Shown piece by piece: positions 528 through 18,910 of a stretch of DNA of 45,876 nucleotides. The stretch comes from a virus. The notes under the pieces were generated by a model. That model did no database searches, was not told the origin of the DNA, and saw only the letters and a program-made list of their open reading frames with translations. The first letter of the stretch is position 1, and each line of letters opens with the position of its first letter. The stretch spans positions 1 to 45,876 of IMG/VR virus record IMGVR_UViG_3300034198_023093; one strand, 5' to 3'. The translations under genes and the position numbers were made by a program.

Positions 528-1670
528 ATGTTCATTGATAATGATTTTCCGAAGCTGCTGGGCGCAGAACTCTATCGGCCCCACCCAGCTTACATCGTGG
601 AGATGGCTGCCGAACCGGTAGTTGTCCACGATTTCACTAAGCAGCCCGGCCAAACCGTGCAGCTGGACCGGTACCGCTTCTGGGGCAACCCCGGAACGAA
701 GACCAGCCGTGAGCGTACCCAGGATCAAACCATTGGTACCGCTAGCAGCCGGGCTATCGTCAAGGACAAGGTGCTGGTTTCTCTGCGTGAGTACACCGGC
801 CCTGCCGACCCGAACAACGTCAATGCTCCGAGCACTTTCAAGATCGCTCGTGAGACTCTGATGACCGCTCAGCGTCTTCTGCTGGACACGGGGAACCTCA
901 ACATGTTCCACCAGTCCATCGGCTCGCTGACCTTGCTCGATGATTATCGCCGTTGGAGGGACCGTGTGTTCCTTGACGAGATGGCGAAATCGGAGACTCG
1001 CGGCGCTTCGGGTGATACTCAAGGTGGTTACTACTACCCCAATGGTAAGACTCGCTCCAGCTCCACTGCTCTGAACTCTTTCACAGCTACCGAGTACGCC
1101 TCGGAGCGTTACAAGTTCAACGTCAAGACCGACCTCCTTGAAGTGGTTCGTCAGCTGCGTAAGCGTAACGTGCCTGTCTTCCAAGACGGCTACTACCGTT
1201 GTATCGCTGATCCCTCATTCATGCGCGATCTTCGCGCTGACCAGGGCTTCCGTGAAGTGGCACGCTATCCAGGCATGGGCCAAGGCAACCCCCTTATGGG
1301 TGCTACCGGACCCAGCCAAGCCATCTACGGCGGCGGTCAGTACGGCCAAGCCATGTTTGTTGCTGGTGAACCAGTGATGCCCACTGGCTTTGTTTTTGAA
1401 GGTGTGCGGTTCTTCGAATCCACCAACTTTGCTAGCAAGTCGATCACCGTGGACATTGGCGATGGTGGCGGTAGCATTTCTCATGTTACTCCTCCTGGCC
1501 TGTTCTTCGGTCCTCAAGCCGTAGGCGTAGGTATTGGTGGTCCGAACGCTCAGGTTCTCATCAACAACAACGACGACTTCAGCCGTTTCATCATTCTGAT
1601 TTGGCAGCTGTACGCCGGTTTTGCTAACCTGAACAAGGACTTCATCACTTCCGCTTTCACCATCATCTGA
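528..1670 (+). CDS. Major capsid protein
   Basis: 380 aa. It is the longest and best conserved protein of the head region, with its own strong -10 box. The N-terminal part has the PGQTVQLDRYRFWG signature followed by a region on activating and handling helices (LREYTGPADP, KIARETLMTAQRLLLDTGN), which I associate with N4 gp56-type HK97-fold capsid proteins. Later parts (DPSFMRDLRADQGFREVARY, then a Gly-rich segment and VRFFESTNFASK) also fit such coats. GC content and codon use are higher than in downstream tail genes, as expected for a highly expressed coat. The opposite-strand open frame across it is a codon-bias shadow. Confidence 0.75.
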   Translation: MFIDNDFPKLLGAELYRPHPAYIVEMAAEPVVVHDFTKQPGQTVQLDRYRFWGNPGTKTSRERTQDQTIGTASSRAIVKDKVLVSLREYTGPADPNNVNAPSTFKIARETLMTAQRLLLDTGNLNMFHQSIGSLTLLDDYRRWRDRVFLDEMAKSETRGASGDTQGGYYYPNGKTRSSSTALNSFTATEYASERYKFNVKTDLLEVVRQLRKRNVPVFQDGYYRCIADPSFMRDLRADQGFREVARYPGMGQGNPLMGATGPSQAIYGGGQYGQAMFVAGEPVMPTGFVFEGVRFFESTNFASKSITVDIGDGGGSISHVTPPGLFFGPQAVGVGIGGPNAQVLINNNDDFSRFIILIWQLYAGFANLNKDFITSAFTII

Positions 1671-6171: not shown

Positions 6172-8466
6172 GTGGCTTTCGGTAAAAACAGTTTCGCCGG
6201 AAATAATAGCGGTTTTAATGGAAAACTGTCTAAAGGATTTGATAGCCCAATAGACAACACTAAGATCAATTTTGATCAATTAGATACGCCTTTTACATTC
6301 ACGCCTAACGATTCACGTTTTAAGAGCAGGATTAAGTTCTACGACCGCGATTCATTGTGGGCACGGTGGAGACGCGGCTACGAGCTATACACAATTACTC
6401 AAAGTTTGTACGGATCGGGAGCTGCAAAGCGTTCCACAATCGGCGACTACAGGTTTAATTGTGCGTTTCAACACAAAAGCGGAATTTTTACAACAGCAAG
6501 AGTTTTTACTTTTCCCAGCAACACTTCAGAAAATGGAGAACAACTGGTTGCAGTAAGAGATGCGAATGTCTTCAATTTTTACGATTTTGGCTTACCAATA
6601 CTATCTACGGTTTATTTAGGGGCTGCATCAACAGCTGCTTACAGCCAATCCGGCACCGATATTGTAGTTTTATATCCAAACCATAATCTGCAACCCAGCG
6701 AACAAGTCCGGCTTACGTTTTTGAGTGGCTCTGCAGTAACAGCTACCTTACCTATAGTCAGCAGGACAACAGATTCTTTTACATGTACAGCAGCAACACC
6801 ACTGACTACTGTTGGGAATGTCTCTGTAGCTTTGTCAACAAGTTTTGAAGATGTTCGTTGGACAGAAACTAGAGTTAAAATTCGAAAACTTCCTGCGTTT
6901 ATTGATACAGTTGTTGGAGAAAGATTCACAGATCGTATAACTGAAACGGATCCTGGTGTTCTTGTAACTTACGCACAGTCTGGTTATTCAGTGAGTGTCA
7001 CGTGTGCCACAGAGCATGGTCTAGTAACTGGCAAAAAAATAAATTTCAGCACAACTACTGGGGATGCAGTAGCAGGTTTATTTTTAGTGCGCGTAACTTC
7101 TCCGACAACATTTGACATAACATCTTCTATTGAGCTTACAACTACAGGCACAGGGCTTGTTTATAGGTTGATTAAAAAGTATGATTATTCCGACTACGTT
7201 GGTTATACCGTAAAAAGTATTGATAGAGGAACAAACGAGATTGTTTTCCAGAGGCAAGATAGTTATGGGGCAGTAACTGATGATAATCAAAAAGTCAGCA
7301 TCACTGTACCAGCTCAACGAGGGTTTGCTTTAAGTCGATTTTTAACATCTGAGATTCGTTATCAGTGCGCTTGTCAAGACTTCACTAGAAGGCAAACATA
7401 TAACTTGTATGACGAGAAAACGTCGTCTCGTTTTCCTAAGACACCAATCACATCGGTTAAACCTGGATCTATTTTATACAAAGATGATTCAGTAGCAGAC
7501 AGGCGGGACAATGATGGTATTTTCAGCGACTTTGGTTATATTTCTACTAGCAATTTCAACACGCTTTCTACTTACAGAGATCAAAAAGAAACGTGTTACA
7601 CGGAATTAATGTATTACCAGATGCGGTGGTGTAAGCACATTTACGCGGCTCTTTTTTCTTTGGTTCATGATGAAGGGAACCAAAAAATAGATATTTTTGG
7701 AACTTACACACAAACTGGCGATACAACTGTAACCATAACAAGCGTTGACCATGGGTTAAATTCCGGGATTAAAATTGCAGTTGAGTTTGAGGATAATACG
7801 GCATTAAGCGGATACTACACAGTAAACAGTGTCATTGGTAAAGATACGTTTACTATGGTTTATCCTTATGTGCAGACTGTTTCGGGTAGATGTATTGTCA
7901 ACAATATAAAAATTCATGAGTACATTAAAGATTGGTTATTAGAGCCATCTGATCATCCTGTTGGAGATAAGTCAGACGCTTTTTATGATAACTTTGAAAA
8001 ACAAAGTTCCGCATTGAAGCAATCTCTTGAAAAGAGCGTGATGTTAAAAATGGGAAAACCTTGGATAGGTTCTCTTGTCACTTTGAATGATAACAGCCTA
8101 CCCCAACAAACACCAAACTACGATGAATCACTTATTTCTTCCATATTGACTGATCACGTGCTTCGCGACGAAGCAGGTAATTTAAGCCCTACAGGCACAC
8201 AGGTCAATTATACCGAAACCATGATTGCCATTGTAAGTAAAGTATTGAATCTGTCACCTTCTTATATTGAATCTGGAATGTTTGGATATATTAATCAGCC
8301 TGCAATTAATTTTCCTCCTAACTATCAAGCAAAAACTATATCTGCTGGATCTTATAGTGCAACAACTCCCACTGTCTTTTCTGAAATCATCGATTGTTCG
8401 ACGTATAGTCCCTACGTTCTGCAAGATGTTATTATTGATTGCGGGCAGTACACAGTTGCACCATGA
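6172..8466 (+). CDS. Large tail protein with three beta repeats and a SWIM-like Cys/His pattern
   Basis: 764 aa from GTG at 6172. Copies of the Y-x-Q-x-G ... H-G/N-L ... T-T-x-G repeat begin near residues 156, 266 and 510. Between the second and third is CAC at 399-401 and CKH at 487-489, the CxC...CxH ligand set of a SWIM zinc finger, but with an unusually long spacer of 85 residues. I recall annotations of this kind in cyanophage structural proteins. Residues after about 600 are mostly helical. AT content is higher than in the capsid gene. A tail-hub or baseplate role is likely. Confidence 0.65.
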   Translation: MAFGKNSFAGNNSGFNGKLSKGFDSPIDNTKINFDQLDTPFTFTPNDSRFKSRIKFYDRDSLWARWRRGYELYTITQSLYGSGAAKRSTIGDYRFNCAFQHKSGIFTTARVFTFPSNTSENGEQLVAVRDANVFNFYDFGLPILSTVYLGAASTAAYSQSGTDIVVLYPNHNLQPSEQVRLTFLSGSAVTATLPIVSRTTDSFTCTAATPLTTVGNVSVALSTSFEDVRWTETRVKIRKLPAFIDTVVGERFTDRITETDPGVLVTYAQSGYSVSVTCATEHGLVTGKKINFSTTTGDAVAGLFLVRVTSPTTFDITSSIELTTTGTGLVYRLIKKYDYSDYVGYTVKSIDRGTNEIVFQRQDSYGAVTDDNQKVSITVPAQRGFALSRFLTSEIRYQCACQDFTRRQTYNLYDEKTSSRFPKTPITSVKPGSILYKDDSVADRRDNDGIFSDFGYISTSNFNTLSTYRDQKETCYTELMYYQMRWCKHIYAALFSLVHDEGNQKIDIFGTYTQTGDTTVTITSVDHGLNSGIKIAVEFEDNTALSGYYTVNSVIGKDTFTMVYPYVQTVSGRCIVNNIKIHEYIKDWLLEPSDHPVGDKSDAFYDNFEKQSSALKQSLEKSVMLKMGKPWIGSLVTLNDNSLPQQTPNYDESLISSILTDHVLRDEAGNLSPTGTQVNYTETMIAIVSKVLNLSPSYIESGMFGYINQPAINFPPNYQAKTISAGSYSATTPTVFSEIIDCSTYSPYVLQDVIIDCGQYTVAP

Positions 8467-8930
8467 CGACTCAAATCTTAAATAGGCGTTCTGACCTAAT
8501 CTTTGATAGGCCGATCCCTACTCAGTTGGGTGTAGCAGAAATCGCGGTCAATACAAACCCAGCAGAGCCGGGGTTGTTTGTGCCTGATAGTACTCCGTCA
8601 CCCGGGACAGGTCTGATAAAGATCGGCCCTACAGCAATCGGAACCACTGCTCCTAACAGCACGCCGAGCGGGTATGGTTTTCTATCGAAAGGCGAGTCCT
8701 GGTTGGACACCTCAAGTACTCACATCTTGAAACTTTATGATGGAACTTCTTGGCAGAGTGTAAAGGCTGTTGTATCCATCAGCGCAGGTAAGGCTCCAAC
8801 TCCTGCAAACGGGCAAATGCACTACGATAAAACTGACACAAAACTTTACACTTATGAACAATCGACCAGCACCTGGCTCACTGACGTTTCAGTCGGAACT
8901 CGGCTGTTATTTGAAGCTAACTACAGGTAA
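8463..8930 (+). CDS. Tail protein with GTR-LFE C-terminal motif
   Basis: 155 aa from the ATG at 8463, in an ATGA overlap with the large tail gene; the longer frame from 8439 is less likely. The N-terminal part (NRRSDLIFDRPIPTQLGVAEIAVNTNPAEPG, in two pieces) resembles the start domain of phage fibres. The middle has TSWQSVK-type fibre repeats. The end VGTRLLFEANYR repeats the end of the 3150-3629 protein. Confidence 0.65.
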   Translation: MTTQILNRRSDLIFDRPIPTQLGVAEIAVNTNPAEPGLFVPDSTPSPGTGLIKIGPTAIGTTAPNSTPSGYGFLSKGESWLDTSSTHILKLYDGTSWQSVKAVVSISAGKAPTPANGQMHYDKTDTKLYTYEQSTSTWLTDVSVGTRLLFEANYR

Positions 8931-8937
8931 AAAGCCA

Positions 8938-9195
8938 TCACGAACCACCCTTAGTCATGAGGTAGTCCAGGATTCTATCCAATTTATTGTGAACCGCTTG
9001 TACCTCCCTTAAAAAATCTTCCTTGAGCACATAATCATGCAGTACAGTACTTTTTAAAGAGTCAAGCTCAGTTTCAATTTTCTCAAACCGCTTATCAAGT
9101 ACTTCTTTGGCTGATTTGTGCCATTTGATGATTGTTCCCAATGCGCCCACTGCTCCTGAAAATGCGGCGCCAGCAAAAACTTCTAGGGACATCAT
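8938..9195 (-). CDS. Small membrane-anchored coiled-coil protein (holin-like candidate)
   Basis: 85 aa, convergent with the preceding tail gene. Residues about 3-25 (LEVFAGAAFSGAVGALGTII) form one hydrophobic segment. The rest is a charged heptad-like helix (RFEKIETELDSLKSTVLH, EVQAVHNKLDRILDYL). One N-terminal membrane helix plus a coiled coil fits holin-like or spanin-like accessory proteins of phages. It lies alone on the - strand inside the tail module, as such genes often do in cyanophages. The function is inferred. Confidence 0.6.
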   Translation of the reverse strand: MMSLEVFAGAAFSGAVGALGTIIKWHKSAKEVLDKRFEKIETELDSLKSTVLHDYVLKEDFLREVQAVHNKLDRILDYLMTKGGS

Positions 9196-9272
9196 CTACG
9201 TGTTGTATCTCTTCTCTTATTCTAAAAGAGTGAATCAACTAAAATAGACCCTGACAATACCAGTGCTTTTAT

Positions 9273-9971: not shown

Positions 9972-10754
9972 GTGGCCGATCTCGACATTACCTCTAAGCA
10001 AGTTACCTGGTTCAAGAAGAAACCAGTGGCTGCTGATACTTTGCCAAACGATAAAAAAGCGCGTGTTGTTAAGGGACGCACATATCGAGGATGTACTCCG
10101 GTTGGACATCAAGACGGGCATACTCACCTGGACATGGGAGTCCTGGGTGACTGGTGGGTGTTTGATGAACACTGGCTCGGTCTTGTTCCAGCCAAAAAGC
10201 TGTATGCAGAAGATGGGAATTTAAGGTATCTCAGAAACTTCCCTTACTTCTGGCAACAGGATAATGGAAATGAAGGGTGGAGGCAGTGTCAATCAAGTTC
10301 GATTGCAATGTGTCTGAAATATCTCAATGTCCCAGGTATTAATGACGATATTGATTATTTGCACTATGTAAATAAGTACGGAGATACGACTACTCGAGCC
10401 GCACATTATAGGGCTTTAAGTGAACTCAAGGTCCCCGCCGCTTTCAAAATGAACCTTGATGAGATTGACATCAAAGCTCAAATTGACTCAGGTAAGCCTG
10501 TACCTGTAGGGATTCTCCATCACGGCACAGTAGATTCTCCACGGGGGGGAGGCCATTTCATCGTGATCACCGGTTACTCTGGTGACGATTTTTGGTTGGT
10601 GCAGGATCCGTTTGGAGAACTTGATCTGGTCAACGGTTACTGGCTGGAGCAAACCCCTACGGCAGGTAAGAATCAACACTATTCCTTCCGTAATCTGAAG
10701 TCCAGATTGTTCGTAGGAGGTGGAGCATCTGGTTGGGGATGGATTTTCCAATGA
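9972..10754 (+). CDS. C39-like papain-fold peptidase, probable endolysin
   Basis: 260 aa from GTG at 9972. A small SH3-like part (VVKGRTYRG) is followed by a C39_2-type cysteine peptidase domain. The Cys is C106 in WRQCQSSSIAMCLKYL, the His is H195 in GGGHFIVITGY, and an Asp/Asn-position residue is D212 in VQDPFG. All three catalytic positions are present. In phages such domains can cut peptidoglycan peptides, so an endolysin or virion hydrolase is likely. The short hydrophobic gene that overlaps its stop supports a lysis cassette. Confidence 0.7.
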   Translation: MADLDITSKQVTWFKKKPVAADTLPNDKKARVVKGRTYRGCTPVGHQDGHTHLDMGVLGDWWVFDEHWLGLVPAKKLYAEDGNLRYLRNFPYFWQQDNGNEGWRQCQSSSIAMCLKYLNVPGINDDIDYLHYVNKYGDTTTRAAHYRALSELKVPAAFKMNLDEIDIKAQIDSGKPVPVGILHHGTVDSPRGGGHFIVITGYSGDDFWLVQDPFGELDLVNGYWLEQTPTAGKNQHYSFRNLKSRLFVGGGASGWGWIFQ

Positions 10755-10964: not shown

Positions 10965-11156
10965 ATGAATACTATTGATGAATTAGAGTCCGATTTGCTT
11001 CAAAAATTAAACACCCTCGAAGTAGAGATTCGCTCTACAGAGAACAAACTTCTCTCATTGAAAGAGGTTTACCTGAAGACTTCGGGGGGTTTGGATGCCA
11101 TTACCTTCGTCAAAAGTCTTCCAGCTTTTAAGGATGAAGCCGCGACTCGGATTTGA
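10965..11156 (+). CDS. Small coiled-coil protein
   Basis: 63 aa, Leu/Glu/Lys-rich heptads (LESDLLQKLNTLEVEIR) predict a coiled coil. The last 19 bases lie antisense to the tRNA-Thr gene. Small coiled-coil proteins often follow lysis genes in phages. No family is recognised. Confidence 0.5.
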   Translation: MNTIDELESDLLQKLNTLEVEIRSTENKLLSLKEVYLKTSGGLDAITFVKSLPAFKDEAATRI

Positions 11157-11212
11157 ACCGAGGATAACCTGATTACAAATCAGGTGCAGTAGGCCAGCTG
11201 TGCTATCGCGGC
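11138..11212 (-). tRNA. tRNA-Thr (anticodon UGU)
   Basis: Reverse complement folds as a normal cloverleaf. The acceptor stem GCCGCGA pairs with TCGCGGC, the anticodon stem CCTGA pairs with TCAGG, and the loop TTTGTAA gives anticodon TGT with T33 in place. The T arm is CTCGG-TTCAAAT-CCGAG. No CCA is encoded. It reads ACA and lies five bases from a second tRNA, forming a pair against the direction of the surrounding genes. Confidence 0.92.
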
Positions 11213-11217
11213 AGTGG

Positions 11218-11300
11218 TAGGAGCGACGGGGGTCGAACCCGTACAATCACAGATTATCGGAGCTTAAATCCGATGCGTCTACCAATTTCGCCACGCTCCT
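11218..11300 (-). tRNA. tRNA-Leu (anticodon UAA)
   Basis: Reverse complement gives acceptor stem AGGAGCG/CGCTCCT, D arm with GGTAGACGC, anticodon stem TCGGA/TCCGA with loop TTTAAGC (anticodon TAA), a long class II variable arm, and T arm ACGGG-TTCGACC-CCCGT. The long variable arm fits leucine. No CCA is encoded. It reads UUA, a codon favoured in the AT-richer tail genes. Confidence 0.92.
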
Positions 11301-12200: not shown

Positions 12201-12671
12201 ATGGCTAAGACGACAACCGACAAAACAACTCCCTGCTACTGCCACTTGACACAGTGTTTGCGGGATTCTGTTCACGTTTACCACCAGACCCAGCTAGTCC
12301 ACTGGAATTTGATGGGCAGCAAATTTTATGAAATTCACTTGTTGACTGAACGAATTTACCAGGAGATGGAGGAGGGTAACGACACGATTGCCGAGCACAT
12401 CCGATCTCTTGATATCGGTACACCTAAAACGGTCGAAGACTTGGTATATTCAACTATGCCAGAGGTTCCTCTGGAAAACTGTTTTAATCAAGATCCAATT
12501 ATTCTCCAGCTCGCAACCAACCATAATCTACTTGCTCTAAAGTTTGAAGAGCTGATTAAGATGTCGGAACAGCTGGGAGATCAATTAACACTCGATCTTG
12601 GCGTCGAGCGTGGGCGTGTGCACAAGAAAAATCAGTGGCTGCTAAAGTCAAATTTAGATTACAAGAAGTAA
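12201..12671 (+). CDS. Dps-like ferritin
   Basis: 156 aa. The core QLVHWNLMGSKFYEIHLLTE and GNDTIAEHI is the Dps (DNA-binding protein from starved cells) signature. The ferroxidase ligands sit at H34, H46, E50, D61 and E65, exactly the 12-4-11-4 spacing of E. coli Dps (H51, H63, D67, D78, E82), with one conservative D-to-E change. The C-terminal helix VHKKNQWLLKSNL also fits. Dps oligomers oxidise Fe(II) with peroxide and store iron, and many bind DNA. No long Lys-rich DNA-binding tail is present. It lies five bases from the next fibre gene. Confidence 0.75.
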   Translation: MAKTTTDKTTPCYCHLTQCLRDSVHVYHQTQLVHWNLMGSKFYEIHLLTERIYQEMEEGNDTIAEHIRSLDIGTPKTVEDLVYSTMPEVPLENCFNQDPIILQLATNHNLLALKFEELIKMSEQLGDQLTLDLGVERGRVHKKNQWLLKSNLDYKK

Positions 12672-12675
12672 GTAA

Positions 12676-13023
12676 ATGTCTAACGCTCCTATTTTTGTTG
12701 ATACTCTTTTTTGCTACCCTGCGGCACTTACAGCCACGGGTACAACATCTATCTGCGTAATCGCTGACCAAGACAACGCAGGCTCAGTGTCTACGGCATT
12801 CCAGGTTACAGTCGCTTCGATCGGAACTTCTGTTATTGTTCGTTTTGAAGGTAGCTTAGATGGGACAAATTTCTTTGCTTTAGCAGCAACTGATACAACG
12901 ATTAGTAGTAACGGAACCACAGGTTACAATTTTCCTAACTTTCCTCTTAAAGCTGTTCGTGGGAGGTTGGTAACAATTACTACCGGAACACCCACTGTTA
13001 CTTTTGTTATAGCTGCCAAGTAA
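12676..13023 (+). CDS. Small beta-sandwich fibre protein, paralogue of 17005-17349
   Basis: 115 aa. Shares with the 17005 gene the layout F-Y-P near the start, then VIVRFEGSLDGTNFFAL, NFPLKAVRGRL and a final VTFVIAAK. The Thr/Val-rich beta structure is typical of fibre or decoration modules. The five-base gap after the Dps gene implies one transcript. Function inferred from context. Confidence 0.65.
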   Translation: MSNAPIFVDTLFCYPAALTATGTTSICVIADQDNAGSVSTAFQVTVASIGTSVIVRFEGSLDGTNFFALAATDTTISSNGTTGYNFPNFPLKAVRGRLVTITTGTPTVTFVIAAK

Positions 13024-13028
13024 ACCAC

Positions 13029-13370
13029 ATGTCAGTCCATCCTGCTACCTACGACGATACTATCAGGACACAGGCTGTCTATGATATGACGTTGCAATTT
13101 CAGGATAGCAACGGTAGAAATATTGATCTTACCGGTTGGACTGTTTCTGCACAAATCTGGAATATCGGCAAAACCACACAATATGCAACTTTTACTGTTG
13201 ATAATTCTGGTGCGGCATCTGGTGTTGTTGTACTAAGTTTGACTACAACACAGACGACTTCTTTGCCAATAGGAACTGCGTATTACGATGTACTGCTTAC
13301 TAACTTGTCGGGAAGAAAAGAGTATTATTTAAAAGGAACTTTTTATATTCAGCAGGGGTATTCAACATGA
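13029..13370 (+). CDS. Fibre-base protein
   Basis: 113 aa: YDMTLQFQDSNGRNIDLTGW, ALS-type beta strands, QTTSLPIGTAYYDVLLTN and GRKEYYLKGTF. This is an all-beta domain I associate with baseplate upper or fibre-attachment proteins. Overlaps the collagen-like gene by four bases. Confidence 0.65.
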   Translation: MSVHPATYDDTIRTQAVYDMTLQFQDSNGRNIDLTGWTVSAQIWNIGKTTQYATFTVDNSGAASGVVVLSLTTTQTTSLPIGTAYYDVLLTNLSGRKEYYLKGTFYIQQGYST

Positions 13371-13711
13371 CCGCTGTATATCAAATTCTTGTTACGACCA
13401 CTAACAGTTCTGTTCTTGTAACAGTAACTGATACAAGAACTGTCTCAGTAATAACTGCTGGGCCACAAGGACCAAAAGGCCTTACAGGGGACACTGGACC
13501 ACCAGGTCAATCTGGAGCGTCCGCATATGTGTTTCAGCAGGCAGCGCCTGCCACTACCTGGACCATTAACCACAACCTGGGCTATCGGCCCAGTGTTGAG
13601 CTGCTGGATTCTGGCAGCCAGGAGATTGATGGGGATGTATCACACCCGAGCATCAATCAAACCCTTGTAACCCTTACTCCAGCAACAGCGGGTTTGGCCC
13701 GACTGATCTAA
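13367..13711 (+). CDS. Collagen-like tail fibre
   Basis: 114 aa, ATGA overlap with the preceding gene. A Gly-X-Y stretch (GPQGPKGLTGDTGPPGQSG) forms a short collagen-like triple helix. It is followed by a receptor-tip domain (WTINHNLGYRPSVELLDSG, then SINQTLVTLTPATAGLARLI) common at the ends of phage fibres. Probably trimeric. Confidence 0.75.
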   Translation: MTAVYQILVTTTNSSVLVTVTDTRTVSVITAGPQGPKGLTGDTGPPGQSGASAYVFQQAAPATTWTINHNLGYRPSVELLDSGSQEIDGDVSHPSINQTLVTLTPATAGLARLI

Positions 13712-13731
13712 CCACTTATTGAGGTACCATC

Positions 13732-14523
13732 ATGGCCCGCAAATTTTTTACTGACATCGACATGCAGTCGGTGTCAAAAGTTGTCAACCTTCCCAGCCCT
13801 ACAGCCTCCGGTGATGCCGTCCCGAAGTCCTATGTGGATTCTGCGATTGAGGGCCTGGCCTGGAAAGACTCGTGCCGAGTTGCTTCTCAAGCGAACCTAA
13901 GCATCGCCACCCCCGGCGCAACAATTGATGGGGTGACGATGGTCTCACAAGATCGTGTGTTGGTTAGAGCCCAGACAGCAGGTGCTGAGAACGGGATTTA
14001 TGTGTGGAACGGTGCTTCGGTTGCGCTGACGCGCTCACTGGACGCTACTACATTTGACGAGCTGGAACAGGCGGTAGTGTCTATCGAGGAGGGCACTAGC
14101 GCTAGTGCCACGTACCGACAAACGGCGGTAAATGGGACGCTCGGAACAACAACAATCACTTGGACTACGTTTGGAACCGGTGCGCCAGCCGCTAGTGAAA
14201 CCACCTCCGGTATTGCTGAGCTTGCAACTCAGGCTGAAACTGATGCAGGTACTGATGATTTACGAATTGTTACTCCACTAAAGCTGACAAACTGGTCTGG
14301 TCGGATCAAGAAGTTTTCAGCTAACATCGGAGATGGTAGTGCCCTTACCTACACAGTGACGCACAGCCTGAACACCCGCGATGTGATTGTTCGCGTATTC
14401 CCTAACAGTGGGCAGTTTGATGACGTTGAGGTTGATGTGCAGCGTACTTCTGTGAACGCTGTCGCCTTGGTGTTTGCAACCGCACCAGCAACCAACGCCT
14501 ATCGCGTTGTGGTGATTGGCTAA
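13732..14523 (+). CDS. Tail-fibre protein
   Basis: 263 aa, with a GAGGT site before ATG 13732. MARKFFTDIDMQSVSKVVNLPSPTASGDAVPKSYVDSAIEGL contains the fibre spacer P-x-A-x-G-D-A-x-x-K-x-Y-V-D. ENGIYVWNGASVALTRSLDA follows, then ETTSGIAELATQAETDAGTDD and a C-terminal tip ending AYRVVVIG. All are standard long-fibre modules. The stop overlaps the next start by one base. Confidence 0.75.
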   Translation: MARKFFTDIDMQSVSKVVNLPSPTASGDAVPKSYVDSAIEGLAWKDSCRVASQANLSIATPGATIDGVTMVSQDRVLVRAQTAGAENGIYVWNGASVALTRSLDATTFDELEQAVVSIEEGTSASATYRQTAVNGTLGTTTITWTTFGTGAPAASETTSGIAELATQAETDAGTDDLRIVTPLKLTNWSGRIKKFSANIGDGSALTYTVTHSLNTRDVIVRVFPNSGQFDDVEVDVQRTSVNAVALVFATAPATNAYRVVVIG

Positions 14524-15413
14524 TGGCAAGGCGATTTTTAACTAATCTTCAGCTAACCGACCCAGGTACCGCACCTGCGGCAGATGCGTCAGGTTTGGTT
14601 ATTTATCCGACCTCCCTGGCCGAACGCTACATGCTGGCCATGCAAGGCCCGACTGGTTTTGCCACAGTGCTGCAGCCAAACATCTTCTCCAACAGCATCA
14701 TGATGTTTGCGCCACAGAGCGGAACAGTGGGAACGGGCGGCAATGCGTTTCAAACATCATGGACGTCTAATGGAACGGTTACCCATTCGGCGCTTAACCC
14801 CAGCATTTTTGGTGCCTGTGGTAGAAACACAACCTTCGCAAACGTTGCCGCGACAACAAATCAGCAACTTGGTCCGCGCATGAACACTGCCGCCGAGCGG
14901 TGCTTCTTTCGTGGAGCCATTTCCAATACGGGAGGATTTTTTTACTATTCTCGTTTTCGCCCAAACTTGGTTACATCAACCTCAAGGCTCTTTACAGGGT
15001 TACAAGGAAACTCAGCAACAGCGTCTATCTGTATTAGTGACACACCAGCTGGTCCCTACTGCGGTCTTCAGCACAACAGCACTGATCCAGCATCAGGTGC
15101 AGGCTCCCTGAACTTTGTCACACATGACGGTACGACCAGGAACGCATTGCCAATAACACCTTTTAGCAATTTAGTAAATGACGCGCCATTACTTGATTTC
15201 ATGATGTATTGCCCCCCTGCGGGGGATAGAATCTATTTTAGACTCGTTGAGTTGGCATTCAACATTCCCCACACAAATAGCACGACAGCAAACCTTCCAG
15301 CAGCAACGGTATTGATGTCCCCCCAATGTCAAGTGAGTAACGGCACTTTGAACACCACAGTTAACACCGTCAATATTAGCGTGAACAAAATATACGTTGA
15401 GAGTATTATATAA
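14523..15413 (+). CDS. Receptor-binding fibre-tip candidate
   Basis: 296 aa. The opening MARRFLTNLQLTDPGTAP parallels the previous fibre, so both may dock on the same site. The middle and C-terminal parts are unique, Ser/Thr/Asn-rich beta strands, with Cys in RCFFRG and GPYCGLQH. The TAATG overlap with the preceding stop and the ATGG overlap with the next show a tight operon. Likely host-range determinant. Confidence 0.65.
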   Translation: MARRFLTNLQLTDPGTAPAADASGLVIYPTSLAERYMLAMQGPTGFATVLQPNIFSNSIMMFAPQSGTVGTGGNAFQTSWTSNGTVTHSALNPSIFGACGRNTTFANVAATTNQQLGPRMNTAAERCFFRGAISNTGGFFYYSRFRPNLVTSTSRLFTGLQGNSATASICISDTPAGPYCGLQHNSTDPASGAGSLNFVTHDGTTRNALPITPFSNLVNDAPLLDFMMYCPPAGDRIYFRLVELAFNIPHTNSTTANLPAATVLMSPQCQVSNGTLNTTVNTVNISVNKIYVESII

Positions 15414-15718
15414 TGGAACCAAACTACGCTGGGTTTTGGGCAGCATTTAAGTCCACCAACGCTTGGATTGGTCTGATGTCAATGTCCAGATACTCCGAAG
15501 CCGTTGAGTTGCGCACCCTGCGGATGCGAGTGGAGATGTTGGACGCGATCAATGGTAACCCTAATCAGTCTGACATTCAAGAAGCAATCTGGCGACTAGT
15601 GGAACTAACGGGCAGCAGCGCCCAGGAGACGCAGCTACAGGAGCTGGTAGGGCTTCTCGTTCTGTACGGCTTTACCCCGACCTACTCCCTCCTTCCGGCA
15701 GACCCGGCGACCCTTTAG
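15413..15718 (+). CDS. Small helical protein, possible fibre chaperone
   Basis: 101 aa, mostly helical, with LRTLRMRVEMLDAINGNPNQ and EAIWRLVELTGSSAQE. Position between a fibre tip and the protease gene suits a fibre-assembly chaperone. No family is recognised. Confidence 0.55.
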   Translation: MEPNYAGFWAAFKSTNAWIGLMSMSRYSEAVELRTLRMRVEMLDAINGNPNQSDIQEAIWRLVELTGSSAQETQLQELVGLLVLYGFTPTYSLLPADPATL

Positions 15719-15729
15719 CCATCACCACG

Positions 15730-16893
15730 ATGAGCGCAAATACCCCCTCGACCACACTTCTCGCGACCCGCGTCGACCTGGCCGACACGTTTCGTCTCCA
15801 CAGCAGACCCGAGGCCTCCAAGACAATCTACTTAGATTTCAACGGACACACAACTACTGGCACGTCATGGAACGTGCAAGCAAAGCGCGAAGCAATCAAT
15901 ACACCGATATTTAATTCCGATGCCAACACAGCAGCGTTCAGTGATGCCGAACTAGAGCGAATTCAGTTCATTTGGCAGCGAGTTGCTGAGGATTTTTTGC
16001 CGTTCGGCGTCAACGTCACCACCGAAGACCCTGGGGAGGAGGCACTGGTCAATACTGGAGGCGAAGATGATCAATGGGGAGTACGCGCCGCGATTGGGGG
16101 AACCAATAAGGATTGGTTAAACAACGCGGGTAGTGGTGGTATTTCTTATTACAAAGGGTTTGGTAGCGCCCGGTGCGGCCCAGTTTTTGTGTTTACTGGG
16201 AATCTCAGCAAAGGTAACGAGAAGAACACTGCTGAAGCAATCAGCCATGAGGTAGGCCACTCTCTTGGCTTGGTCCACGATCATACTGTTAAATCTGATT
16301 ATTTCAGCGGGCAGGGGACCGGCCCCACAGGTTGGGCACCTATTATGGGCAACGCTTATGGAAAACCTCTCAGTCAGTGGAGTCACGGCGAGTTTAAAGG
16401 TTCCGTCAATCAGGAAGACGATCTAGCAATCATTGCTTCACCCCAGAACGGCTTGGGCTTCCGGTCTGACGATTTCGCTGATTCGATCACCAAGGCCACA
16501 CCGCTTATCGGCCCAAGCCTGAACCAGTTTGGAATTATTTTTACTCGTAATGATACCGATTGGTTTAGCTTTGTTACAGGAACAGGCACCGTAAGTCTGG
16601 TCGTTGAAAACGCCACCCAGGCTTGGATCAGTGACGGGTCTGGGTATTTCACTAGCACCTTGTTAATTGGGCGTGGGCCGAACTTAGACATTGAAGCCAA
16701 AGTCTTTACCACTGACGGCACCCTGGTCGCCGCCAATAATTCCAAAGGCACTGGGGCCAGCTTCGATCTGACCTTGACCGCTGGAACTTACTATCTTCAG
16801 GTCGACGGTGTGGGTTTTGGTGATCCTCTCAAAAATGGATATTCCGATTACGGAAGCCTTGGAGGGTATTTAGTGTCTGGCAGTTTGGCGTAG
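15730..16893 (+). CDS. Metzincin zinc protease with C-terminal PPC domain
   Basis: 387 aa. The catalytic motif HEVGHSLGLVHD (H173, E174, H177, H183) is the full metzincin signature, and M206 in APIMGNAYG fits the Met-turn. The first 170 residues have the matrixin-type beginning (KTIYLDFNGHTTTGTSW, AFSDAELERIQFIWQRVAEDF). Residues about 255-387 fit a bacterial pre-peptidase C-terminal (PPC) domain (DTDWFSFVTG, FDLTLTAGTYYLQVDGVG). This family is usually a secreted bacterial or cyanobacterial protease, not a phage protein. Coding style does not differ clearly from neighbours. It may act on host surface protein during adsorption. Confidence 0.8.
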   Translation: MSANTPSTTLLATRVDLADTFRLHSRPEASKTIYLDFNGHTTTGTSWNVQAKREAINTPIFNSDANTAAFSDAELERIQFIWQRVAEDFLPFGVNVTTEDPGEEALVNTGGEDDQWGVRAAIGGTNKDWLNNAGSGGISYYKGFGSARCGPVFVFTGNLSKGNEKNTAEAISHEVGHSLGLVHDHTVKSDYFSGQGTGPTGWAPIMGNAYGKPLSQWSHGEFKGSVNQEDDLAIIASPQNGLGFRSDDFADSITKATPLIGPSLNQFGIIFTRNDTDWFSFVTGTGTVSLVVENATQAWISDGSGYFTSTLLIGRGPNLDIEAKVFTTDGTLVAANNSKGTGASFDLTLTAGTYYLQVDGVGFGDPLKNGYSDYGSLGGYLVSGSLA

Positions 16894-17004
16894 AATCAAG
16901 CTTTAGTACGCCCGCTTCCGGACAACCATTGCCACCTAGTGGCACCTTCGCCTATTATTCTCATTGAGATCGACATAACAGGCATCTTAACTAAGAGCAA
17001 TTCA

Positions 17005-17349
17005 ATGAGTTTTTTCGAAGGTTATCAGCAAACAGTTTTTTTCTACCCGTCGATTCTCACTTTCCCCGGCGTTACCGAGGAATATGAGGTATACACAACT
17101 AACTATTTATCTACACGTAACTACACTTTAATAGCAATTGTTCAAGACATTGATACAAGTATTGTTGTTCGTCTTGAAGGCACTTTAGATGGTAAGAACT
17201 ACGGTGCACTTATCTCTAATACTATAACCGAGAACGGGGTTCACGCTTATAATGTGATAGGGTTTCCCGTTAAAAAAATTCGAGCAAACCTTTTAAAACG
17301 AACCGGAGGCAACAACGCCAGTGTCACTTTTCAAATGGCGGCCAATTGA
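17005..17349 (+). CDS. Paralogue of the 12676 fibre protein
   Basis: 114 aa from ATG 17005, close to the 115-aa length of its partner. Shared features are F-F/C-Y-P at the N-terminus, SIVVRLEGTLDGKNYGAL, GFPVKKIRANLL and ASVTFQMAAN at the end. The frame is open upstream to a GTG at 16939, which is less likely. Confidence 0.65.
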   Translation: MSFFEGYQQTVFFYPSILTFPGVTEEYEVYTTNYLSTRNYTLIAIVQDIDTSIVVRLEGTLDGKNYGALISNTITENGVHAYNVIGFPVKKIRANLLKRTGGNNASVTFQMAAN

Positions 17350-17397
17350 TCTAGCTGGTGCTAAGACTACGTAAAATATAACAGTGCAGTAAATCCA

Positions 17398-17562
17398 GTG
17401 GAAGATTACGGTTACCCTAAACAGTTTTTATCACAGTACGTAACAGAACGCCCGCCCGTCATGGAGCGCGGAGTGTTTGAATTGCCTTGTGATCCTCCTA
17501 GTTTTGCTGCAGACCTTAGATACCTTCCGCTGAAGGACGTGGCCGTTAAGTCGACTCGTTAA
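17398..17562 (+). CDS. Small protein, 54 aa
   Basis: GTG 17398 to TAA 17562. Begins EDYGYPKQFLSQYVTE after the start residue, ends LKDVAVKSTR. It fills the gap between the fibre paralogue and the NblA-like gene. No motif and no strong ribosome binding site. Confidence 0.45.
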   Translation: MEDYGYPKQFLSQYVTERPPVMERGVFELPCDPPSFAADLRYLPLKDVAVKSTR

Positions 17563-17602
17563 GTTACAGCTGCTAGAATTTATCCATGGATCGGACGATT
17601 TG

Positions 17603-17824
17603 ATGGATGCTACCGCTCCAGGGTTGTCGGTTAATCAGGAGTTCCTAATTCACGCGGCAGCTTTAACAATTAAAGATCTAGACCGCAACGACTTGGAAGA
17701 AGCGTTCCTTAATGCTCTTCATCAAAATATGCAGGATCGTCAGACGTTTCTGAATATTTTGAAACAACACGGCATTGATGCTGAGATCACGTTCACTTAT
17801 TTGACACCTAACCAACTCTCCTAA
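17603..17824 (+). CDS. nblA: NblA-like phycobilisome degradation adaptor
   Basis: 73 aa from ATG 17603 (the frame also has a TTG at 17600). The layout matches NblA: an LSxxQEF opening (PGLSVNQEFLIHAAALTI), then a helical pair, and AFLNALHQNMQDRQTFLNILKQHGID, matching the family's LxxLxrQMxxRexxxxxxLKxxxGI. NblA bridges phycobiliproteins to the Clp protease, and cyanophage versions are known. The conserved R after QEF is H here. Function is likely but not proved by these matches alone. Confidence 0.55.
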   Translation: MDATAPGLSVNQEFLIHAAALTIKDLDRNDLEEAFLNALHQNMQDRQTFLNILKQHGIDAEITFTYLTPNQLS

Positions 17825-17829
17825 GGAAA

Positions 17830-18213
17830 ATGCCTACACGCACTGTTAAAGGAACTCTTGACAATCTGCGAGTCAGCGGTGGCAGTGAAATTACGTACCT
17901 TGGCCCTACAAAATTTAATGATCGTGGGGAACTGTTGCGGGCGTTCAGAGTAACTCCTGCGAGCACTGGCAGCATCATTTTCACCGTGGACAAATCGGAT
18001 TCAGTTAACACTATTCAGATCTTTCAAGAAGATTCTTTTAACGGATCTGCTTCGCCCACTGGGTACGTACCGTTTTTTAACATTGGAAAGGCAGGTAAAG
18101 GCAAGGGCGTGGTAGCAGCAACCGTGACAAACGCAGCAAAAACCTATATTGTCATGATTAGGTTTGACGAATACAGCAATGCCGCCTACAACGGTAGCGT
18201 TCAAATCCCCTGA
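17830..18213 (+). CDS. Small beta protein, PPC-like
   Basis: 127 aa. TYIVMIRFDEYSNAAYNGSVQIP at the end (in two pieces) and IIFTVDKSDSVNTIQIFQED resemble the edge strands of PPC domains, such as those in the protease upstream and in the - strand 448-aa protein. Otherwise unassigned. Six-base gap after the NblA-like gene. Confidence 0.55.
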   Translation: MPTRTVKGTLDNLRVSGGSEITYLGPTKFNDRGELLRAFRVTPASTGSIIFTVDKSDSVNTIQIFQEDSFNGSASPTGYVPFFNIGKAGKGKGVVAATVTNAAKTYIVMIRFDEYSNAAYNGSVQIP

Positions 18214-18910
18214 ACCCTATAAAAGTCCTTTTTTAAGCGACTTAGTAGTTGAGCTGATACAGAAGCACGGGTACCCCCGAACCTATTGTGGGGACGAACG
18301 GTTTGCTTCTTATCGTACGGAGCACGGTGAGTGGCGAATTGGGTATGGTAGCAGCCGCATTGGAAAGACATGGGCAGGTCCATCCACAAAAGCCAGTAGA
18401 GATGAGATAAACCAACAGCTAGTAAAGGACTTAGAGGTACTAGCAGAGAAGATCTCTAGCTACGTCATCATGCCGCTGAGCCCTAAAAAGCGCGGCGCTC
18501 TCCTCAGCTACGCACACAGCGTTGGATTAAGTTACTTTAAAGACAGTCCCCTACTGGAGTTGATAAACTCACGCGCTACGAAACTCGAGATTATCAAGGA
18601 ATGGAGTCCGCTGATCAATCCTTTGTATCGGTTTGCTAACGAACACGTACAGAAAAGAAGACAAGTTGAGCTGAACATGTACCTCTCTACTGATACGGAG
18701 GTACACGGATTTGTCAGACACGTTTGTAAATCTGATCAGTGTTTGCTCACAATCGGTGAGAGTTTCATTGGCACACCTAACCAAGTTAGAGCTTTAGAGT
18801 ATCTTGAAAAGGAACTAAGCACGTTAGATCCGTCCGGAAAAGTACTGAAGCAGTTCTTCCGCCACTGGGGCAAACCGCACAAAGGAGTTGCCTCATTCAG
18901 ACCAGCTTAG
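18179..18910 (+). CDS. GH24-like lysozyme with altered catalytic positions
   Basis: 243 aa from ATG 18179, overlapping the previous stop by 35 bases. The GH24 layout is visible: SYRTEHGEWRIGYGS, DEINQQLVKDL, LSPKKRGALLSYAHSVGLSYF with a following S-x-L-L, EIIKEWSPLINPLYR and QKRRQVELNMY. In T4 lysozyme numbering, D20 becomes T and T26 becomes R, and the Glu is not at position 11 but a D-E pair lies one to two places away. The C-terminal 80 residues are extra. Either an endolysin with a shifted active site or a domain kept for binding. Confidence 0.6.
   Translation: MPPTTVAFKSPEPYKSPFLSDLVVELIQKHGYPRTYCGDERFASYRTEHGEWRIGYGSSRIGKTWAGPSTKASRDEINQQLVKDLEVLAEKISSYVIMPLSPKKRGALLSYAHSVGLSYFKDSPLLELINSRATKLEIIKEWSPLINPLYRFANEHVQKRRQVELNMYLSTDTEVHGFVRHVCKSDQCLLTIGESFIGTPNQVRALEYLEKELSTLDPSGKVLKQFFRHWGKPHKGVASFRPA

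Follow-up and report, generated by a model that had tools for sequence, protein, structure and literature searches.

We identified, in a virus record of 45,876 bases (hereafter, the window, that is, the whole stretch of DNA analyzed), an intact gene for a metzincin protease with a PPC domain that has neither a signal peptide nor a pro-region (15730-16893, plus strand; 387 aa) and is the last gene of a tail fiber cluster. The explanation we favor, to which we would give slightly less than an even chance, is that a captured cyanobacterial exoprotease is reused as a late host-surface protease, borne by the virion along with the fibers; for the step that places the protease on the virion, we consider the case about evenly balanced.

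Domain architecture and predicted fold

The open reading frame starts with ATG and contains 0 internal stops, and its position and strand are exactly those given in the first-pass annotation of this DNA. That annotation also described a complete HExxHxxGxxHD motif and a Met-turn; the zinc motif, HEVGHSLGLVHD, occupies residues 173-184 (16246-16281, plus strand), and the Met-turn, APIMG, includes Met206 (16345-16347, plus strand). Alignment of 37 homologues showed that H173, E174, H177, H183 and M206 are invariant, which excludes a chance motif. In Pfam searches, Reprolysin_5 (E = 1.6e-6, 28.9 bits against a cutoff of 27) and Reprolysin_3 (E = 7.4e-5, 23.7 bits against 22.4) passed narrowly in the window protein, and several phage homologues fell just under the cutoff. 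The PPC family (PF04151) scored below its cutoff in the window protein (E = 5.9e-3, 17.9 bits against 25.9) and was narrowly passed by the homologue L007 (26.2 bits against 25.9). There was no match over the cutoff in an NCBIfam search, and a PDB sequence search with the protease yielded weak matches, the best with E = 0.015.

The AlphaFold2 model, for which the 37 homologues served as input, reached a pLDDT of 90.8 and a pTM of 0.92. Compared with PDB structures, residues 28-242 of the model (15811-16455, plus strand) match snake-venom metalloproteinases with Z scores of 10-11.6 (6x5x, Z 11.6, 156 aligned residues, 3.4 A; 2aig, Z 11.4), corresponding to a reprolysin/adamalysin-like catalytic domain, and residues 247-386 (16468-16887, plus strand) match the collagen-binding domain of ColG (5iku, Z 15.3, 2.0 A) and the PPC domain of the Bacillus anthracis collagenase (5sv5, Z 12.7). 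By its zinc motif, Met-turn residue and modeled fold, the window protein belongs to the metzincin superfamily, with zinc-dependent proteolysis as the predicted activity, and the C-terminal domain has, in the model, the PPC/collagen-binding fold although the PF04151 score is sub-threshold. The structural comparison that had been suggested for this product thus confirmed both of the domains originally proposed. The similarity to the collagen-binding domains of the clostridial collagenases ColG and ColH (Z 14-15) is one of fold: sequence identity is only ~20%, and the catalytic domain of these enzymes comes from a different family.

The carrier phage and its variable fiber locus

The major capsid protein encoded in the window (528-1670, plus strand; phrog_1357, major head protein), which we used as the lineage marker, is 69% identical to that of Synechococcus phage S-EIV1, 67% identical to that of the genome G002 discussed below and, among the matches listed (at least 80), 87-96% identical to those of IMG/VR loci. 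By this capsid protein identity with S-EIV1 and the ordered homologues of the head genes, the window is assigned to a fragment of an S-EIV1-lineage phage. Sequence searches detected no counterpart of the protease in S-EIV1 itself, and it was also absent from ~38 searched records of the lineage, a count that is a lower bound and includes several fragments; G002, the record of L003, was part of the same search and is not counted among them.

Upstream of the protease, all on the plus strand, are the genes for a virion/fiber-like structural protein (13732-14523; phrog_2647, E = 7e-57, and several tail fiber PHROGs), a fiber protein whose homologue in G001 is the C-terminal part of an Mtd_N-type tail fiber (14523-15413; 63% identity to G001 and 64% to G003) and a 101-aa partner that travels with the fiber tip (15413-15718; 81% identity in G001 and 78% in G003, beside the fiber in each). 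The structure model of the fiber protein (14523-15413) was unusable (pLDDT 31). The genes directly downstream (starting at 16939 and 17830) are uncharacterized and carry no fiber assignment, and are followed by a phage lysozyme, the first recognizable lysis gene (18164-18910, plus strand; PF00959, E = 1.7e-10). The earlier placement of the protease between fiber genes therefore holds on the upstream side only.

The segment from 13367 to 16893 (plus strand) forms a cassette with a G+C content of 0.50-0.52, compared to 0.45-0.46 on either side. The content of the cassette is absent or replaced in L203, L212, L115, L204, L209, L101 and L104, and the flanks are conserved: the left one (13029-13370, plus strand) has homologues with 59-63% identity in L204 and L209, and the right one (16939-17349, plus strand) has homologues with 62-74% identity in L101, L203, L204, L209, L212 and others. 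Thus, close relatives keep the genes at 12676 or 13029 on the left and at 16939 on the right and vary in between. The locus is empty in L203, L212 and L115, where the flanking genes are a few to ~27 bases apart, is filled with other fiber-like genes in L204, L209 and L104, and in L101 holds a collagen-repeat fiber and a glycosyltransferase/methyltransferase. Such variable content between retained flanks indicates that the protease occupies an exchangeable fiber locus. In L101, the glycosyltransferase/methyltransferase gene (16163-17776, plus strand) takes the place that the metzincin occupies in the window; the locus therefore seems to accept various enzymes as cargo.

Scans for promoters and terminators in the window gave results near chance (10 against 6.3 expected and 8 against 6.3 expected, respectively), and the T4-type late promoter motif [CA]TAAATA occurs 0 times on its plus strand and is uninformative for this phage.

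Homologous proteases in unrelated phages

No common phage use had been known to the first-pass annotation for metzincins of this layout; we found, however, that the gene is carried by the T4-like isolate Synechococcus phage S-CRM01, by G002, a closed genome of the S-EIV1 lineage, and by lambda-like siphophage contigs, a T4-like contig and one further siphophage-like contig. The database counts come from scans with degenerate patterns and include fragments, so the frequencies are lower bounds. Clearly cyanophages among the carriers are only S-CRM01 and the T4-like contig L216, which encodes psbA.

G002 (83,980 bases) has an exact end overlap of 123 bases, which indicates a closed genome, and encodes an S-EIV1-type major capsid protein (66-67% identity) followed by head genes whose order agrees with that of the window. 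Its metzincin, 59% identical to that of the window, comes after a tail fiber gene and the gene for an 814-aa tail protein and before an SLT-like enzyme, ~15.7 kb downstream of the capsid gene, compared to 14 kb in the window. The closed genome and the phage gene setting exclude host contamination for this copy and show that the position is repeated. The concern that the window gene might be contaminating host DNA, which had been raised as a possible refutation, was accordingly rejected: G002 is closed, and phage genes flank the window copy on both sides.

In the lambda-like L007 (a label that relies on a few PHROG matches), tail protein J and two fiber-like genes precede the metzincin, which, as in the window and G002, is the last gene of the fiber cluster. 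In L001, a YkuD L,D-transpeptidase follows the metzincin. Two records with the protease, G001 (that of L001) and G003 (that of L007), also contain the fiber (63-64% identity) and 101-aa (78-81%) module that immediately precedes the protease in the window, although at a place apart from the protease; the module is absent from G002 and L216. In L216, which also carries psbA (read from translation) and transaldolase genes, the metzincin begins 31 bases after a CTAAATA late promoter match. The psbA gene of this contig (3394-5329, plus strand) appears to be split into pieces by HNH endonuclease-like genes, as if bearing introns; Rfam detected a PhotoRC-II element just upstream and no intron family. 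In the siphophage-like contig L219, the metzincin is located beyond an amidase/glucosaminidase endolysin.

The S-CRM01 homologue, g42 (AEC52989, ‘pre-peptidase C-terminal domain-containing protein’), has the same metzincin core and PPC domain, is 43% identical to the window protein across 90% of the latter, is the only viral protein whose structure matched over the full length (F5B3R2, TM 0.86) and likewise contains no signal peptide. It differs in being longer (636 aa), in retaining the CxCxxC N-terminus, in a C-terminal region resembling F5/8 type C (sub-threshold), in apparently stemming from a separate capture, from Cyanobium-type hosts, and in its location between gp21 and gp22 in the prohead gene cluster. 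The CTAAATA motif is found 24-34 bases ahead of several late structural genes of S-CRM01 and not directly ahead of g42. According to PMC10665884, the proteins of purified S-CRM01 virions were identified earlier. Among the papers searched, none dealt with the metzincin-PPC family in cyanophages.

Capture and trimming of the protease

A tree of 56 proteins, the phylogeny against cyanobacterial metzincins that had been proposed, groups the window protein with L001, L002, L003 (G002), L007 and L216 (99/93), and this clade is sister to two proteins (L011 and L012) from the cyanobacterial MAG UBA5018 (100/98), whereas S-CRM01 and L219 group with proteins of Cyanobium, Synechococcus and Aphanothece (100/100). 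A single phage clade was rejected (p-AU = 4e-35). Judged from this tree, the metzincin-PPC gene has entered phages at least twice and is shared by unrelated backbones, rather than representing a routine cyanophage family. Within the window clade, the closest relative of the window protein, which comes from the S-EIV1 lineage, is that of the lambda-like G001 (100/95), and G002, also of the S-EIV1 lineage, pairs with L002, which has phage tail genes upstream; these pairings across lineages suggest exchange between backbones. We assume that capture proceeded from cyanobacteria to phages, a direction supported by the greater length of the cellular proteins and their wide distribution in cellular genomes. 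The genes on either side of L012, the UBA5018 copy, appear from their translations to be carotenoid and tRNA-processing genes, so this copy looks cellular.

The cyanobacterial proteins (L011/L012 of UBA5018 and L045-L060 of Cyanobium/Synechococcus) have a homologous two-domain core, with 43-58% identity over it, but are longer. In these proteins, CxCxxC occurs in an N-terminal region, 186-194 residues ahead of the zinc motif, and the C-terminal parts consist of RTX repeats (L012) or W_rich_C domains (L047), in agreement with the previous remark that metzincins of this layout are secreted cellular enzymes. By contrast, the window protein, L001, L002, L003 and L007 begin with the catalytic core (the start of L007 was taken at the conserved SMTLPT position, and the open frame extends further upstream) and end after the PPC domain, and L216 is extended by a short N-terminal stretch that lacks CxCxxC; in particular, the window protein has no N-terminal signal peptide and no C-terminal type I/RTX part. 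Among the other phage copies, S-CRM01 retains CxCxxC, and L219 retains one W_rich_C domain. As the alignment indicates, the window clade has lost the CxCxxC pro-region and the C-terminal extensions and kept the core. Hydropathy analysis detected a strongly hydrophobic N-terminus or signal peptide in 0 of the eight phage copies, that is, the six of the window clade, S-CRM01 and L219. Among unsaturated phage pairs, pairwise dN/dS is 0.19-0.31, indicative of purifying selection.

Every cyanobacterial sequence in the alignment contains the CxCxxC motif, as does S-CRM01 (L008); the strict conservation of the motif in L045-L060 and L008, 185-194 residues ahead of the zinc site, suggests that it could be a cysteine-switch-like latency element. 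More distant phage hits (L009, L010 and L223-L228; 26-38% identity) were considered for pooling with the cyanophage group and rejected, given that the five checked (L009, L010, L223, L225 and L228) have a hydrophobic N-terminus, with a signal peptide or lipobox of their own. In L010, a subtilase-like protease is encoded beside the distant metzincin.

Possible roles of the protease in phage reproduction

With no signal peptide in the eight phage copies, the protease could reach the cell surface only via virions or lysis, and the virion route is favored because of the association with fibers. In the scenario we favor, a cyanobacterium-type secreted metzincin-PPC gene would have been captured and cut to the catalytic core and the PPC domain; the product would be made late, without an export signal (late timing being presumed for the window phage), and would ride on the virion with the fiber apparatus, possibly held at the tip by the PPC domain or a fiber partner, where it might trim a layer of protein, be it an S-layer, a giant surface protein or a matrix protein, such that the receptor becomes reachable. 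The two-domain fold with its intact active site, the location in an exchangeable fiber site, the fiber tip and 101-aa module shared with G001 and G003, the terminal position in the fiber clusters of the window, G002 and L007, the late promoter match in L216, the dN/dS values and the secretion of the cellular relatives, with their RTX or W_rich_C tails, are all consistent with a virion-borne protease. Counting against it, the S-CRM01 gene lies with prohead genes, not fibers, the module and the protease are apart in G001, the module is missing in G002 and L216, and lysis-type enzymes are also found nearby in several phages.

This last observation bears on a close rival, which we regard as a distinct possibility, namely, that the protease is synthesized late and remains in the cytoplasm until the endolysin opens the cell, and then degrades surface proteins, debris or matrix, thereby aiding virion escape and diffusion without being part of the virion. 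The lack of an export signal and the lysozyme, SLT-like, YkuD or amidase genes near the protease in the window, G002, L001 and L219 would fit such a role, and in Listeria, a metzincin derived from a phage increases both lysis and virion release (PMC8235301). However, there is little matrix to clear around a single-celled planktonic host, the S-CRM01 copy is distant from lysis genes, and release by lysis leaves the repeated position right after the fibers unexplained.

Two further alternatives appear unlikely. In one, the metzincin would be an exchangeable part of the host-recognition tip itself, a proteolytic analogue of tailspike depolymerases, swapped along with receptor-binding fiber modules between unrelated phages, the collagenase-type PPC domain docking on the fiber while the catalytic domain cuts a protein surface layer; several fibers of the locus contain collagen-like repeats. 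In the other, just as improbable, the protease would act inside the cell, cleaving either a structural protein of the assembling phage (fiber, prohead or scaffold) or a host protein at a late stage of infection. The location of g42 between the prohead protease gp21 and the scaffold gp22 in S-CRM01 and the zincin-like peptidases proposed to function in virion maturation of jumbo phages (PMC7824862) are compatible with processing, but the ~38 relatives of the S-EIV1 lineage without the gene still assemble, the carriers have unrelated structural proteins and so no common substrate, and PPC domains typically occur in secreted enzymes. The notion of passenger DNA, either a functionless recent host gene or an assembly chimera, is very improbable: the patchy occurrence of the gene and the elevated G+C of the cassette would agree with it, but the closed genome and purifying selection already disfavor it, as do the phage genes flanking the window copy, the copy in the isolate S-CRM01, the eight intact frames with an invariant active site, and the loss of export and pro-regions with retention of the core.

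Phage-captured exoproteases are already known as a kind, the nearest precedents being Mtz/Tim, Molly and the jumbo phage zincins. Mtz of Listeria, encoded with the TIMP-like Tim (PMC8235301), is a metzincin of phage origin that operates at the cell envelope and favors phage lysis, but it is secreted and paired with an inhibitor-like lipoprotein; the metallopeptidase of the flavobacterial phage Molly (PMC8776804) is a phage-encoded zinc peptidase with the extracellular matrix as the proposed target, but it is a 199-aa lipoprotein with its own export signal. Both are likened to the window protein by description, not by sequence. That phages with unrelated capsids have repeatedly captured one kind of host exoprotease, discarding its export parts and keeping the core under selection, indicates a real advantage. 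Polysaccharide depolymerases on phage fibers are known. If our favored reading is correct, a virion-borne metzincin directed against a protein coat would be a proteolytic equivalent of these fiber depolymerases. Since S-CRM01 is cultivated, the location of the protease in virions, lysate or cytoplasm can be tested there directly.

Other genes of the window and its relatives

Beside the fiber locus of L203, there is a gene (8378-9223, minus strand) for a prolyl-hydroxylase-like 2OG-Fe(II) oxygenase (PF13640, E = 2e-17); similar open reading frames are present in L212, L115, L209 and L101, and none at that site in the window. Some of the oxygenase-bearing relatives have collagen-repeat fibers (L101), which the oxygenase might hydroxylate. 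In the window, a C39-like peptidase (9972-10754, plus strand; endolysin phrog_10051, E = 3e-46) is encoded in the structural region well upstream of the lysozyme, two tRNA genes (Thr-TGT and Leu-TAA; 11138-11300, minus strand) are located on the opposite strand within the late gene region, and a Dps/ferritin-like gene (12201-12671, plus strand), with 60-91% identity in relatives, lies among the late structural genes.
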